A DNA stretch of 64,000 bases from Pyramidobacter sp. C12-8 (lineage in GTDB: Bacteria > Synergistota > Synergistia > Synergistales > Dethiosulfovibrionaceae), in assembly GCF_002007215.1 (NCBI RefSeq), contig NZ_MUHX01000010.1, positions 1 to 64,000 of the forward strand, given 5' to 3'. Numbering within the stretch: position 1 is the stretch's first letter; each line of letters opens with the position of its first letter. The translations under genes were made by a program, and so were the position numbers. The notes under the pieces are model-generated. The model had not been told where the DNA came from. It made no database searches and was given only the letters and a program-made list of their open reading frames with translations. This document shows positions 25,868-32,337 of the stretch, in pieces.

Positions 25868-26941
25868 ATGATCGTGTATCGGATGCTGTTCGCGCGGACG
25901 TTCGACCCGATCGCGCTGTACCGCGTGGAAGAAGGATCGCACCGCAGCATCACGGCCGACAGGGTGTTTTTCGTCGACGTCAACCCGTCTTACGAGCGCG
26001 TCATGAAGGTTCGCCGCCGGGACGTGATCGGCCGCAGCTTTCTCGACGTATGGCCGATTTCCGAGCCGCGCTGGTCCCAGATCATCGTCGACTGTCTGCG
26101 TCTCGGGCATTCGGTGCACTGCGAGGGCAACAGCAAAGAGGCCGGCAGTTTTCTCGAGGCGATCGCTTTTCCTCTGCCGCCGGCCATGGCGGCCGTGATC
26201 TTCCTCGACAAGACGAAACTGAAGGATGCCGACGAGGCGCTGGACCGCAAAAAAAATGAATTGCGCAATTTGGCCACGCAGCTGACGCTCACCGAGGAGA
26301 GCACGCGCCGCGCCATCGCCACCGACTTGCACGACCGCATCGGCTACGATCTGGTCTCGCAGCTTCACAAGATCCGCGAGCTGCGCGAAAAAGTGCGTCC
26401 GGCGCTGGAGGCGGAGATGGCGGCGCTGGAAGCCAACACGGAGAAGATGATCCGCGAAAGCCGTTCGCTGATCTTCGAGCTCAGCCCGCCCATTCTCAAG
26501 GAAGTGGGCATCAATCCCGCTTTGGAATCGTTGGCCGACAACCTGCTCACGCCGCACGGCATCAAGTGGGAGCTGCGCGCGAAGGGGACCATGGCCGACT
26601 TCTGGGCGGACGATGCCGTCTGCGTGATCCTTTACCGCATGGCACGCGAGCTGCTGATCAACGTGATCAAACATTCCGGCGCGACGCGTGTCACCATCAT
26701 CGTCAACCGCGGCCCGGGGAAGATCATGGTCGCGGTGGAGGACAACGGCCGGGGATTCCCCGAGGACTTCGACCTCGATCATAACGAGGAGCGCAAGGAA
26801 ACGAAAAGCTTTGGGCTTTTCAGCATCAGGGAACGCCTTGAACCCATCGGCGGAACTCTGAAAATCGTTTCCATCCCCGGGAAGGGCGCGACCGTCGCCA
26901 TGTCCTGCCCGTTGAAACTGAAGGAAGGGGAGTTCAAATGA
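25868..26941 (+). CDS. NarL-type sensor histidine kinase with PAS domain
   Basis: The 357-residue protein has an N-terminal PAS-like domain (residues about 5-115; DVNPSYERVMKVRRRDVIGRSFLDVWP) and no membrane segment, so it senses in the cytoplasm. A coiled linker leads into a HisKA_3 dimerisation box with the phosphoacceptor His155 in ATDLHDRIGYDL. The C-terminal HATPase domain has the N-box ARELLINVIKHS and G-box DNGRGFP. The stop overlaps the regulator gene by 4 bases. The stimulus is unknown. Confidence 0.87.
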   Translation: MIVYRMLFARTFDPIALYRVEEGSHRSITADRVFFVDVNPSYERVMKVRRRDVIGRSFLDVWPISEPRWSQIIVDCLRLGHSVHCEGNSKEAGSFLEAIAFPLPPAMAAVIFLDKTKLKDADEALDRKKNELRNLATQLTLTEESTRRAIATDLHDRIGYDLVSQLHKIRELREKVRPALEAEMAALEANTEKMIRESRSLIFELSPPILKEVGINPALESLADNLLTPHGIKWELRAKGTMADFWADDAVCVILYRMARELLINVIKHSGATRVTIIVNRGPGKIMVAVEDNGRGFPEDFDLDHNEERKETKSFGLFSIRERLEPIGGTLKIVSIPGKGATVAMSCPLKLKEGEFK

Positions 26942-27588
26942 GTATTCGCGTGCTTCTGGCCGACGATCACGAAATGTTTCTTGAAGGACTGCGGGAACTG
27001 CTCGGCAAAGCGGACGGCATCGAACTGGCCGGACTGGCCCGCGACGGCGCGGAGGCCGTCGCGGCGGCGGAACGTCTGCAGCCCGACGTGGTGCTGATGG
27101 ACATGACGATGCCGCGGCTGAACGGCATCCAGGCGACGCAGAAGATTGCCGCCGGCTCATCCGGCACGAAGGTGCTGGTGCTGTCCATGCACGGCGACAA
27201 GAACCTGATCGTCGAGAGCCTGAAGGCCGGAGCCCGCGGCTACGTGCTGAAAGAGTGTTCGTCGCAGGAGCTGTGCCTGGCCATCCAAACCGTCGCGAAC
27301 GGCCAGTATTACTTGACGCCGGCGATCCTTTCGACGCTTATCGGAGATTATCTGCGCTTGACCGAAAACGAAGCCCAGTCCTCGAGCTGCCCGCTGTCGG
27401 ACCGCGAGCTGGACGTGTTGAAACTGCTCGTCAACGGTTGCAACGCCAAACAGATCGCCGAACAGCTCAGCATCAGCAAAAACACGGTGGACACGCACCG
27501 TCGCCACATCCTCGACAAACTTGGCTGCAACAGCATGGCCGAGCTGACGCGCTACGCTATCCGCGAAGGCTACCTCGACCTCAGCTGA
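26938..27588 (+). CDS. LuxR/NarL-family response regulator
   Basis: The 216-residue protein has a receiver domain with acidic pair Asp9/Asp10 and phosphoacceptor Asp55 (VLMDMTMPR), and a C-terminal LuxR helix-turn-helix (about 150-212) with LSDRELDVLKLLVNGCNAKQ followed by SKNTVDTHR. It is coupled to the kinase gene by a 4-base overlap. Targets are not visible, but the divergent or downstream grd operon is an obvious candidate by position. Confidence 0.9.
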   Translation: MSIRVLLADDHEMFLEGLRELLGKADGIELAGLARDGAEAVAAAERLQPDVVLMDMTMPRLNGIQATQKIAAGSSGTKVLVLSMHGDKNLIVESLKAGARGYVLKECSSQELCLAIQTVANGQYYLTPAILSTLIGDYLRLTENEAQSSSCPLSDRELDVLKLLVNGCNAKQIAEQLSISKNTVDTHRRHILDKLGCNSMAELTRYAIREGYLDLS

Positions 27589-27991: not shown

Positions 27992-29299
27992 ATGAGACTT
28001 GAAATCGGAGCCTTTCATGTGACCGACATCAAGTTCGGCGACCATACGGGCTACAGCAAGGGCATTCTCACCGTCAACAAGGAAGAACTGCTCAAGGTCG
28101 TCAAGGAAGACGAGCACATCACCACCGCCGATCTGAGGATCGTGCATCCCGGCGACAAAGTGGTGCTCTGTCCCGTCAAGGAAGCGGTGGAGATGCGCTG
28201 CAAGGTGTCCGGCGGCCACGGAATCTTCCCCGGCGTCCTGTCCGAGATGGAGATCGCCGGTTCCGGCCGCACCCACTGTCTGCAGGACTGCTCGCTGCTC
28301 GTCGTCGGCGAACATTGGGGCGGATTCCAGGACGGCCTGATCGCCATGGGCGGCGCGTATCAGCATCACACCATCTTCGGCGACATGGTCAATCTCGTGT
28401 TGGTGGCGGACACCGACGAAGAGTTCGAAAAGCGCGAGCAGCAGAAGAAAAATCACGCCCTGCGCTGGGCCGGCATGCGCCTTGCCGAATACGTCGGCCA
28501 GTGTGTGAAAGATCTCGAGCCCGAGAACATCGAAGTCTACGACCTGCCTGCCCTGAACGAGCGCGGCCCTGAAGTGGACAAACTGCCCCGCGTGGTCTAC
28601 CTGCTCCAGCCGCAGACCCAGATGGAGACGATGGGCTACAACACGCTGATCTACGGCTGGGACGGCAACCATATCCTGCCCACCTTCATGCACCCCAACG
28701 AACTGCTCGACGGCTGCATGGTGTCGGGGTCCTTCATGCCCACGTCGTCGAAGATCTCGACTTACGAGTTCGCTGTCAATCCGATGATCAAGAAGCTCTA
28801 CGAACAGCACGGCAAGACCATCAATTTCCTCGGCGTCGTCATGTCCACGCTGAACGTGAAGATGGACGAAAAAGTCCGCTGCGCCAAGATGGCCGGGCAG
28901 ATCTGCGCCTCTCTCGGCGTCGACGCCGCGGTCGTCGTCGAAGAAGGGTACGGCAACCCCGACGTCGATTATACCGCCATGCTGGTCGAGCTCGAGCGCC
29001 TCGGCATCAAGACCATCGGCCTGTCGGACGAGTGCACCGGCCGCGACGGCGCCTCGCAGCCCCTCGTTTCCATGAACCCCGTCACCGACGCGTTGGTCAC
29101 CACCGGCAACGTGTCCCAGATGTACGAGTTCCCGAAGATGGAAGTCATCGGCGAGCTCGAAGCTCTGGCCCGCGACGGGAACTCCGGCGGCTGGGAAGGC
29201 TGCATCCGTCCCGACGGTTCCTTCGTGATGGAAAACAACGGCATGTTCTGCGCCAACCACATCAGCGGTTACTCCAAGAGAACCTGCGCTGATTTTTAA
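27992..29299 (+). CDS. grdI: Grd complex component B, alpha/beta proprotein (betaine-reductase type, GrdI)
   Basis: The 435-residue protein matches the GrdE/GrdG/GrdI family: start MRLEIGAFHVTDIKFGD, PGDKVVLCPVKEAVEMR near 55-70, and a YGNPDVDYTAM segment near 325. Component B binds the substrate and hands a carboxymethyl group to the selenocysteine of protein A. The BCCT transporter downstream points to betaine rather than glycine or sarcosine. In GrdE as I remember it, a cysteine about six to ten residues after the DG.xVSG motif becomes a pyruvoyl group; here that segment (244-254) has Phe248 and Ser252/Ser253 instead, with the only near Cys at 242. ATG 27992 with AAGGAG upstream is chosen. 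Confidence 0.82.
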   Translation: MRLEIGAFHVTDIKFGDHTGYSKGILTVNKEELLKVVKEDEHITTADLRIVHPGDKVVLCPVKEAVEMRCKVSGGHGIFPGVLSEMEIAGSGRTHCLQDCSLLVVGEHWGGFQDGLIAMGGAYQHHTIFGDMVNLVLVADTDEEFEKREQQKKNHALRWAGMRLAEYVGQCVKDLEPENIEVYDLPALNERGPEVDKLPRVVYLLQPQTQMETMGYNTLIYGWDGNHILPTFMHPNELLDGCMVSGSFMPTSSKISTYEFAVNPMIKKLYEQHGKTINFLGVVMSTLNVKMDEKVRCAKMAGQICASLGVDAAVVVEEGYGNPDVDYTAMLVELERLGIKTIGLSDECTGRDGASQPLVSMNPVTDALVTTGNVSQMYEFPKMEVIGELEALARDGNSGGWEGCIRPDGSFVMENNGMFCANHISGYSKRTCADF

Positions 29300-29319: not shown

Positions 29320-30636
29320 ATGCTGAAAGCCATTCATTACATCAACCAGTTCTTCGGCCAGGTCGGCGGCGAAGACGCGGCCGACGCCAAGCCCATTTTC
29401 CACGACGATCTCGTCGGCTGCTCGATGATGCTGAACCAGATGGTGAAGCCCGACATCGAAGTCACCAATACCATCGTCTGCGGCGATAATTACATCACCA
29501 ATCACACCGACGAGGCCCTGAAAGAGATCTTCGCCTGGCTCGACACGAAGAAATTCGACATTTTCTTCGCCGGTCCCGCCTTCATGGCCGGACGCTACGG
29601 CGTCGGCTGCGGCATCATGTGCAAGGCGGTGGCCGAGCGCTATCACGTGCCCGTGATCACCTCCATGAACGAGGAAAACCCCGGCGTCGAAGAGTACAAA
29701 TCCGTGTGCTACATCTTCAAGGGCGGCCGCAAGGCGACCTTCATGAAGGACGACGTGACCGCCATGGCTGCGTTCGCCAAGAAAATCGCCAAAGGCGAAG
29801 AGCTCCTGCCCGCCGCCCAGGAGGGTTACTTCCCCCGCGGCATCCGCGCCGAGATCCCTCAGCCCGACGGACGCATCGCCGCCGACCGCGTCATCGACAT
29901 GCTGCTCAAGAAGCTCAAGGGCGAGCCCTTCCAGACCGAGCTGATCATCCCCAAGATGGAGAAGATCCCGCCCGCGCCCGCGCTCAAGGATCTGGCCCAT
30001 GCCACCGTCGCGCTCGTCTCGTCTTCCGGCGTGGTGCCCGTGGACAATCCCGACCGTATCCAGAGCGCTTCCGCCCAGAAATGGGGCAAGTACGACATCT
30101 CCAAGCTCGACAACTTGCCCGAGGGCGTGTTCAAGACGATCCACGCCGGTTTCGACCCCGCCGCCATGTGCCACATTCCCGATCGCGGCATCCCCGTGGA
30201 CGCCATGCGCTACTTCGAGAAACAGGGCAAGATCGGCAAACTTTATGATTATTACTATGTGACTGTCGGCACCGGCACGACCCAGGCCTTCGCCGCCAAG
30301 TTCGGCAAGGAGATCGCCGCCGAGCTTCACGCCGCCAAAGTCGACGCCGTCGTGCTCACCGCCACCTGAGGCACGTGCACTCGTTGCGGGTCAACGATGG
30401 GCAAAGAAATCGAAAAAAGCGGCATCCCTGTGGTCGTGATGTGCAATCTGATCGACGTGGCCAAGACCGTCGGTGCCAACCGCATGGTCCAGACCGTGTC
30501 CGTCCCCTATCCTCTGGGCGATCCCGAACTGAGCGCCGAGGCCGAGTGGCAGCTGCGCACCAGCCGCGTCGAGGCGGCTCTGAACGCTTTGGCGACGGAC
30601 ATTACCGAGCCGACGGTGTTCCCCTCCAAGTTCTGA
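29320..30636 (+). CDS. grdH: Grd complex component B, gamma selenoprotein (GrdH/GrdB family), UGA read as Sec350
   Basis: The frame runs 349 codons to an in-frame TGA at 30367-30369, then continues in the same frame without break to the stop at 30634-30636. This gives 438 residues when TGA is read as selenocysteine. The context TAT-U-GTCTRCGSTM is the active-site motif of the GrdB/F/H subunits, which cleave the substrate C-N bond through selenium chemistry. A hairpin suited as bacterial SECIS follows at 30381-30397. A conventional annotation would truncate the protein at residue 349. ATG 29320 follows GGGGAGG. It forms one operon with grdI (20-base gap). GrdA, GrdC, GrdD and the Sec machinery are not in the window. 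Confidence 0.92.
30367..30397 (+). promoter_or_regulatory. Selenocysteine UGA and bSECIS hairpin
   Basis: TGA at 30367-30369 is followed after 11 bases by a stem tcgttg (30381-30386) / caacga (30392-30397) with the 5-base loop cgggt. The loop sits 17-22 bases past the UGA and contains the GU expected for SelB binding. The element lies wholly in coding sequence, as is normal for bacteria. Confidence 0.85.
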
Positions 30637-30774: not shown

Positions 30775-32337
30775 ATGTCGGATAAAATTTCCCGAAATCC
30801 TCTCGACCACGGCCGGCTTGACTGGTCAGGCTGCGTCGATACCAAGAGCAACGCGGTTTATTACGTTTCAATTCTGATCACCTTCGCGGCGGTCCTTTGG
30901 GGACTGCTGTCGCCCGATTCTTTCGGCTCTTTCGCCAAGTCGTTGTTCAATGGCCTGACGACTTATTTCGGCGCCGGGTACATGTTCTTCATGAACGTTT
31001 TCGTTATCTTCTGTCTCTTCATCGCCGCCGGCCGTTTCGGCAAAGTCCGCCTGGGCAAGGCGGAGGACCGCCCCGAATACAGCAACTTGGCCTGGTTCGC
31101 CATGCTGTTCTCGGCCGGTATGGGGGTGGGGCTGGTGTTCTATGGTGCCGCCGAACCTTTGATTTATTTCACCAATCCGCCCTTCGGCGCGGCTCCCGAG
31201 TCCGTCCAGGCCGCCCGTGACGCGCTGCAGGTCTCTTTCTTCCATTGGGGGCTGCATCCTTGGGCAGGTTACGCCGTCATCGCCATGCCGCTGGCCTACT
31301 ATCAGTTCCGCTACAACGCGCCCGGCTTGATCAGTTCGATCTTCATCCCGCTGGTCGGAGAGAAGGCCGTCAAGGGGACGTTCGGCAAGGTTGTCGACAT
31401 TCTCGCCACGTTCGCCACGCTGGGCGGCATCACCACGTCTCTGGGGCTCGGCACGCTGCAGCTGAACTCGGGAGCTAACACCGTCTTCGGACTGCCCAAG
31501 ACCACGTTCGTTCAGGTCGTCATCATCGCGATTCTTGCCGTGCTTTACACCGGTTCGGCCGTGCTCGGCATCAAAAAGGGCATTTCCAAGGTGGCCGACT
31601 TCAACATCCGCGTCTGCTTCATCCTCATGGCCCTGATGTTCATCGTCGGCCCCTCGCTGCCCATCGTCGAATCCTTCATGACCGGTATCGGCGATTTTCT
31701 CAGCGGCCTGGTCGAGGAGAGTTTCATGATGGATCCCTACGGCGCCGGGTACCAGAAACATCTTGCCAACTGGACATTGTACTACTGGGCCTGGTGGATC
31801 GCCTGGGCGCCTTTCGTCGGCGCTTTCGTGGCCCGCATTTCCCGCGGCCGCACCATCAGCGAGTTCATCGCCGGCGTTCTGATCGTTCCCGCGCTCGGCA
31901 GCGCGGTCTGGTTCGCCATCTTCGGCACTTCGGCGCTGCATCTCGAGCTGGTCCAGCACGTCAAGATCGCGGCGGAAGTGATCAAGGACGTTTCCGTCGG
32001 CGCCTTCGAGCTGTACAAGCACTATCCTCTCGGCACGGCCATGTCCTACGGCATGATCGTGTTGATCACGACGTTCTTCGTCACTTCGGCCAATTCGGCC
32101 ACGTTCGTGCTGGCTGCGTACTGCCAGCACGGCACCAGCGATCCGTCCAAGAGCAAGATGGCCATCTGGGGCATCCTCATGGGCGCTCTGGCCGTGGTGC
32201 TCTTGACCACCGGCGGCCTGATCAACATTCAGACCATCTCACTGTGCACGGCGCCTCCGTTCGCGTTCATCATGTTCTTCTCCTGCTGGGGGTTCTGGAA
32301 GGCCCTCAACGCCGACGAGCGGAACGGGCGTCTGTAA
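30775..32337 (+). CDS. BCCT-family betaine/choline/carnitine transporter
   Basis: The 520-residue protein has twelve membrane segments, the MGVGLVFYGAAEPLIYF motif near residues 118-134 and the aromatic substrate-site region WTLYYWAWWIAWAPFVGAF near 330-348. BCCT carriers import betaine or related quaternary amines with Na+, H+ or by exchange. Placement directly after grdI-grdH implies that it feeds the reductase. The N-terminal tail is short, unlike osmoregulated BetP. ATG 30775 follows GAAAGGAG. Confidence 0.9.
   Translation: MSDKISRNPLDHGRLDWSGCVDTKSNAVYYVSILITFAAVLWGLLSPDSFGSFAKSLFNGLTTYFGAGYMFFMNVFVIFCLFIAAGRFGKVRLGKAEDRPEYSNLAWFAMLFSAGMGVGLVFYGAAEPLIYFTNPPFGAAPESVQAARDALQVSFFHWGLHPWAGYAVIAMPLAYYQFRYNAPGLISSIFIPLVGEKAVKGTFGKVVDILATFATLGGITTSLGLGTLQLNSGANTVFGLPKTTFVQVVIIAILAVLYTGSAVLGIKKGISKVADFNIRVCFILMALMFIVGPSLPIVESFMTGIGDFLSGLVEESFMMDPYGAGYQKHLANWTLYYWAWWIAWAPFVGAFVARISRGRTISEFIAGVLIVPALGSAVWFAIFGTSALHLELVQHVKIAAEVIKDVSVGAFELYKHYPLGTAMSYGMIVLITTFFVTSANSATFVLAAYCQHGTSDPSKSKMAIWGILMGALAVVLLTTGGLINIQTISLCTAPPFAFIMFFSCWGFWKALNADERNGRL

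Follow-up and report, generated by a model that had tools for sequence, protein, structure and literature searches.

A GrdI-type B subunit in Pyramidobacter carries Ser-Phe in place of the Asn-Cys cleavage pair, as does nearly all of its clade

Results

A grdI-type gene adjoins a selenoprotein partner and a BCCT transporter

The window, meaning the whole stretch of 64,000 nucleotides from Pyramidobacter sp. C12-8 that was analysed, carries a grdI-type gene, a grdH-type gene and a transporter gene in that order on the forward strand. The features considered below are the following.

27992..29299, + strand: grdI-type gene, substrate-specific E/G/I subunit of protein B (PF09338, 8e-175; 60-61% identity to homologues)
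28637..28642, + strand: codons of Tyr216-Asn217, where Cys-bearing homologues have a His-Asp pair (counted from the ATG at 27992)
28715..28717, + strand: codon of Cys242 (TGC), aligned over the Ala of DGA and not at the pyruvoyl position
28730..28735, + strand: codons of Ser247-Phe248, in the place of the Asn-Cys cleavage pair of GrdE and GrdG (alignments)
28745..28750, + strand: codons of Ser252-Ser253, with Ser252 at the second conserved Cys column (alignments; Cys252 in 120 of 121 Asn-Cys proteins)
29320..30636, + strand: grdH-type gene for a selenoprotein B subunit of 438 aa; residue 350 is Sec, within TATUGTCTRCG (PF07355, 1.7e-152)
30370..30407, + strand: SECIS element immediately behind the Sec codon (38.5 bits with Rfam SECIS_4; gathering score 38)
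30775..32337, + strand: BCCT transporter, presumed to take up betaine (PF02028, 1.8e-174; betaine BCCT model NF047988, 590.5 bits, cut-off 650)

The open reading frame from the ATG at 27992 encodes 435 amino acids with a predicted uncut mass of 47.9 kDa, and its product matches PF09338, the family of glycine/sarcosine/betaine reductase B subunits, over profile positions 1-425 of 426, indicating full-length homology. An alignment of eight proteins was built from the window protein, two Bacillota homologues, GrdG of Peptoclostridium acidaminophilum, a Photobacterium protein and three paralogues from the same genome; the 60-61% identity is to the homologues of Acetoanaerobium and Enterococcus gilvus in this set. 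Among whole-protein matches in genome_contigs, the nearest named relatives are Synergistota genomes. The NCBIfam matches for the window include no GrdI model, and the protein scored 147.7 bits against the FarE model NF053623, far under the cut-off of 675, which places it outside FarE. Homology supports the gene as a GrdI-type B subunit, with betaine as the putative substrate assigned from its kinship and its neighbours.

The grdH-type gene starts twenty bases past the grdI stop codon and contains an in-frame TGA at 30367-30369 as the Sec codon, so that the TGA and the SECIS_4 match together identify a Sec-containing subunit of the GRDB family as the partner of GrdI. With the TGA read through, GrdH scored best with the betaine model NF040795 (670.4 bits), followed by the general B model TIGR01918 (602.7), the sarcosine model (508.7) and the glycine model (474.8). 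The general model was passed easily (602.7 bits, cut-off 65.45), whereas the score with NF040795, a model typed 'exception', lies below its curated cut-off of 775; the betaine GrdH label therefore rests on kinship and not on the cut-off.

Of the 80 named GrdI loci, 64 have a BCCT gene and 78 a detected partner of the GrdB family. None of the 123 loci of Asn-Cys proteins has a BCCT gene, a weak contrast because these loci are mostly short. The same arrangement ends a longer cluster on a plasmid of Enterococcus gilvus, in the order trxB-trxA-grdA-grdC-grdD-grdI-grdH-BCCT, where grdH is annotated and grdI is annotated only as a B subunit. Just upstream of grdI in the window and on the same strand, two ORFs resembling a histidine kinase and a LuxR-type response regulator were seen by eye at 25868-27588, and this pair may regulate grdI.

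Phe248 occupies the column of the pyruvoyl-forming cysteine

Wagner et al. reportedly found in 1999 that cleavage takes place at an Asn-Cys bond in E. acidaminophilum. The pyruvoyl group derived from Cys242 of C. difficile GrdE was captured by mass spectrometry, as given in the available part of PMC9908766. An earlier note on this DNA had suggested that the pyruvoyl-forming cysteine is replaced in the window protein. In the eight-protein alignment, the Cys-bearing proteins have SGNCVSACDK or SGNCVAPCDK where the window protein has SGSFMPTSSK; put as a pattern, GrdE, GrdG and similar proteins have GN|C..[AP]C and the window GrdI has GSFMPTS. Ser247 lies under the Asn and Phe248, encoded by TTC at 28733-28735, under the Cys of GNC, and Ser252 lies under the second Cys. 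The window protein thus has Ser-Phe and Ser where a GrdE/GrdG proprotein has its Asn-Cys pair and second Cys, and it carries no processing cysteines, as expected of GrdI. Cys242, which might have been taken for the missing residue, falls under an Ala six residues before the pyruvoyl column, so that alignment with GrdE-, GrdG- and GrdI-type proteins upholds the suggestion. That this residue and the pyruvoyl Cys of C. difficile GrdE both bear the number 242 is accidental.

Columns 247-248 were tabulated for the 271 of 304 PF09338 matches that are distinct and 200 aa or longer. The pair was NC in 121, SF in 109, SY in 2, TC in 7 (PrdA) and another pair in 32. Aligning each sequence singly with the window protein reproduced the pair in 232 of 232 NC, SF and SY rows and in 34 of the 39 others. 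Since the pairwise alignments agree with the multiple alignment, the alignment is secure at this site and the absence of the cysteine is not an alignment slip. The absence of the pyruvoyl cysteine in the window GrdI is therefore real.

The replacement is shared across the GrdI clade

The best 80 whole-protein matches to the window GrdI in named genomes of genome_contigs, chosen regardless of the motif, all have GSF. The GrdI set was retrieved by means of an alignment with the window GrdI at its head, and no frequency can be read from the number of its members; of 183 matches, the 8 shorter than 300 aa were left out before tabulation. Ser247, Phe248, Met249, Pro250, Ser252, Ser253 and Lys254 are invariant in 66 aligned sequences, namely the window protein and 65 of the best 80 matches. 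Two positions close to the site vary among the 111 SF/SY proteins. At residue 251, Cys is the commonest with 56 cases, followed by Thr (21), Val (17), Ser (11) and Ala (6); at residue 242, 87 proteins have Ala, 23 have Cys and 1 has Ser. This variation indicates that neither nearby cysteine is needed by the clade. A tree was calculated without the motif columns from the 61 rows that identity thinning left of the PF09338 sequences; in it the 8 GrdI rows including the window protein form one clade with support of 98/92. The absence of the cysteine is not peculiar to the Pyramidobacter genome; throughout the GrdI clade it is the rule.

Other positions also differ between the two groups. In the 121 NC proteins, His216 and Asp217 have frequencies of 1.00 and 0.99, whereas the 111 SF/SY proteins have Tyr (0.96) and Asn (1.0) there; residue 223 is mostly Val in the former and Trp in the latter, Cys252 is replaced by Ser, and Asp or His at 253 is likewise replaced by Ser. 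Counted with duplicates kept, His-Asp was found in 122 of 123 NC proteins (the remaining one has His-Ser), in 0 of 130 SF/SY proteins, and as His-Asp or His-Glu in 11 of 11 PrdA-type rows. Among the other Cys-less proteins that have residues at the site, only two, both Asn-Ser, carry the His; a short PrdD-like row that is gapped at the site (L283) has it, and one discordant protein (L063, pair HC) has a Cys at the column but no His. The presence of Cys248 and of His216 agrees in 58 of the 61 tree rows. Only 2 independent pairs of coupled loss of Cys248 and His216 were found on starred branches (4 on all branches), which is too few for significance.

The partner of GrdI also differs from the usual form next to its selenocysteine. 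The residue two before Sec is Ala in the window GrdH (30361-30369, TATUG), and most GrdH have Ser. Partners of the 111 distinct SF/SY proteins read STU in 89 cases, ATU in 17, TTU in 1 and SNU in 1, with 3 unreadable; partners of the 121 distinct Cys-bearing proteins read STU in 56 and ATU in 1, with 64 unreadable, mostly at loci that end early. In the accessible part of PMC10838667, the Ser of STUG is proposed as a carbonyl source (formylglycine). The Ser before Sec is relaxed in GrdH partners, which does not decide whether Ser serves as the carbonyl source.

Paralogues with and without cysteine are found in the same genome

Four PF09338 genes were found in the Pyramidobacter genome: two encode GNC proteins, one of which has a glycine riboswitch upstream, and the others are the window GrdI and a FarE gene. 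Because GNC paralogues are kept in the same genome, the cysteine has been lost only from certain paralogues. The FarE gene (L004, 1375-2667 on the - strand of contig C144) scored 935 bits with the fluoroacetate model, above its cut-off of 675; its product lacks the Cys, its partner contains Sec, and a second, partial GRDB match adjoins. The genome has five GRDB matches and one GrdA gene with an in-frame TGA.

Cys-less E subunits also occur outside the GrdI and FarE groups. One Bacillota clade has GNYVWPAFK at the site (L242, L243, L244, L246, L247, L250), and at the five of its six loci that were read (L242, L243, L244, L246, L247) an intact Sec-containing B gene with UGTCTRC lies upstream. 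L242 has genes for an aldehyde dehydrogenase and an Fe-dependent alcohol dehydrogenase downstream, and the related locus L240 has an aldehyde dehydrogenase. Seven divergent Cys-less E genes (L248 and L251 to L256) have the pairs QY, NY, YT, YL or NA, and their Sec partners read UGTSTRCG, without the first Cys of CxxC; partners at the FarE loci L004 and L067 read UGTSSRCG. A B component without UxxCxxC is treated as a likely pseudogene in the available part of PMC6778437. Since seven Cys-less and two FarE loci share an altered partner motif, the absence of UxxCxxC alone need not mean decay.

Two GrdE-like genes (L266, 2028-3347 on the - strand; L284, 2002-3309 on the + strand) have Asn-Ser for Asn-Cys and retain His-Asp as well as the second Cys. 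Neither has a detected GrdB partner nearby, and they may possibly encode a serine-derived pyruvoyl form or be orphan copies. A scan of viral_contigs with GrdE found nothing.

Structure searches

The AlphaFold model of GrdI has a mean pLDDT of 87.1, with residues 241-260 less certain (blocks of 73 and 75). A sequence search of solved structures with GrdI found no relative. The searches with profile A1 and with PrdA gave one match each (E 0.96 and E 0.051), both rejected as chance, and so no relative either. With the model as query, Foldseek gave no match under E 0.001 and VIA-align gave no Z of 8 or more; the middling matches were common alpha/beta folds and are uninformative on function. As no solved relative was found, no active-site geometry can be read from the model.

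Discussion

The gene very probably encodes GrdI, the substrate-binding subunit that pairs with the selenoprotein GrdH to form the betaine-specific protein B of a Stickland-type betaine reductase, with a chain that stays uncleaved and free of pyruvoyl. From the residues at the site, we infer that the chain is not self-cleaved and has no pyruvoyl group. Meyer et al. reportedly described in 1995 a betaine protein B of two subunits of 45 and 48 kDa, which the predicted uncut mass of GrdI fits. The component B of these reductases has two or three subunits in the part of PMC6778437 available. In the parts seen of PMC10838667, glycine and sarcosine bind through a Schiff base, and GrdI is without processing cysteines and is not a proprotein, like FarE. 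Since betaine is itself a quaternary ammonium ion, cleavage of its C-N bond would not require a Schiff base. We propose that its trimethylammonium group would already be an adequate leaving group for a GrdI chain that stays whole. The selenolate of GrdH would attack the methylene carbon, trimethylamine would leave and a carboxymethyl selenoether would form, and the carboxymethyl group would then pass to protein A (GrdA) and on to protein C (GrdCD), appearing as acetyl phosphate. The aromatic residues Phe248, Tyr216 and Trp223 might hold the trimethylammonium head by cation-pi contacts, a speculation from conservation only. The suggestion of the earlier note that loss of the cysteine fits a betaine-specific, uncleaved subunit is thus supported: the Sec-containing GrdH and the BCCT gene uphold the link to betaine, and the published account of GrdI, as far as that text was available, agrees with the uncleaved chain predicted from sequence for this organism.

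Serine is the usual pyruvoyl precursor in other enzymes. GrdI might still be processed at Ser247, Ser252 or Ser253 to give a serine-derived pyruvoyl group as in those classical enzymes; all three serines are invariant in the 66 aligned GrdI, and the Asn-Ser pair of L266 and L284, which keep His-Asp, suggests that a serine form may exist elsewhere in the family. We consider such processing very unlikely, because GrdI also lacks the Asn and the His-Asp pair, because the carbonyl would be of no use to betaine, which cannot form a Schiff base with it, and because the available text of PMC10838667 states that GrdI is not a proprotein. That the gene is a decayed or misaligned copy of a GrdE or GrdG gene, and not a functional betaine subunit, is scarcely credible: beyond the missing cysteine itself nothing was found in favour, and it has to contend with a full-length open frame 60-61% identical to Bacillota homologues, with a Sec partner that is intact with its SECIS, with a transporter, and with replacement residues that are invariant across phyla, a clade-wide conservation that contradicts decay.

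A pyruvoyl-free B subunit could also act on some other quaternary or amine-free substrate, such as a betaine analogue or, like FarE, a halogenated acetate. The Cys-less FarE in the same genome and the score of the window GrdH under the betaine cut-off would agree with this, but the protein lies inside the GrdI clade on the tree, the best model for its GrdH is the betaine one and a BCCT gene is its neighbour, and we regard another substrate as very unlikely. A GrdI of betaine reductase with an uncleaved chain is the reading that we retain.

That GrdI has lost the cysteine has been published before, and the interpretation is supported here and is not new. What is added is the clade-wide Ser-Phe/Tyr-Asn signature, the ATU of the window GrdH as against the usual STU, and several uncharacterised clades of Cys-less E subunits; no description of the signature, of the relaxed Ser before the Sec of GrdH or of further Cys-less clades was found in the accessible portions of the open-licence literature. 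Asn-Cys with His-Asp, as against Ser-Phe with Tyr-Asn, sorts B subunits into those capable of a cysteine-derived pyruvoyl group and the betaine type that cannot form one. The signature helps to predict which gut and sediment bacteria release trimethylamine from betaine, and it points to uncharacterised Cys-less reductases. GrdI and FarE may not be isolated cases, given the further Cys-less clades that are also without the His. It is conceivable, though we hold it only tentatively and with more doubt than belief, that the family is a general platform for cleaving C-X bonds by a selenolate, in which pyruvoyl serves only primary and secondary amines, an aromatic residue often stands at the former pyruvoyl site and seats quaternary or amine-free leaving groups, and the Asn-Ser orphans represent a serine version of the pyruvoyl form.

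Compared with known systems, the window proteins are closest to GrdI and GrdH of Acetoanaerobium, Enterococcus and other Bacillota, which also lack the Asn-Cys pair, and the order grdI-grdH-BCCT is that of Enterococcus gilvus. Unlike many GrdI, the window protein has Thr at residue 251, where 56 of the 111 SF/SY proteins have Cys, and its GrdH has Ala and not Ser two before Sec, unlike most GrdH. GrdE (glycine) and GrdG (sarcosine) belong to the same Pfam family with similar length and 35-37% identity, but they have GN|C..[AP]C and His-Asp where the window protein has GSFMPTS and Tyr-Asn. FarE, the fluoroacetate reductase subunit, is likewise missing both processing cysteines, a comparison also made in the part of PMC10838667 available to us; it is only 27% identical, has RYWEP with a deletion at the site, and its partner lacks the first Cys of CxxC. 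PrdA, the proprotein of D-proline reductase, is a distant homologue over the same site (TIGR04480), and, unlike the window GrdI, it has a Cys in the pyruvoyl column (preceded by Thr, or in one case by Cys) together with His-Asp or His-Glu.
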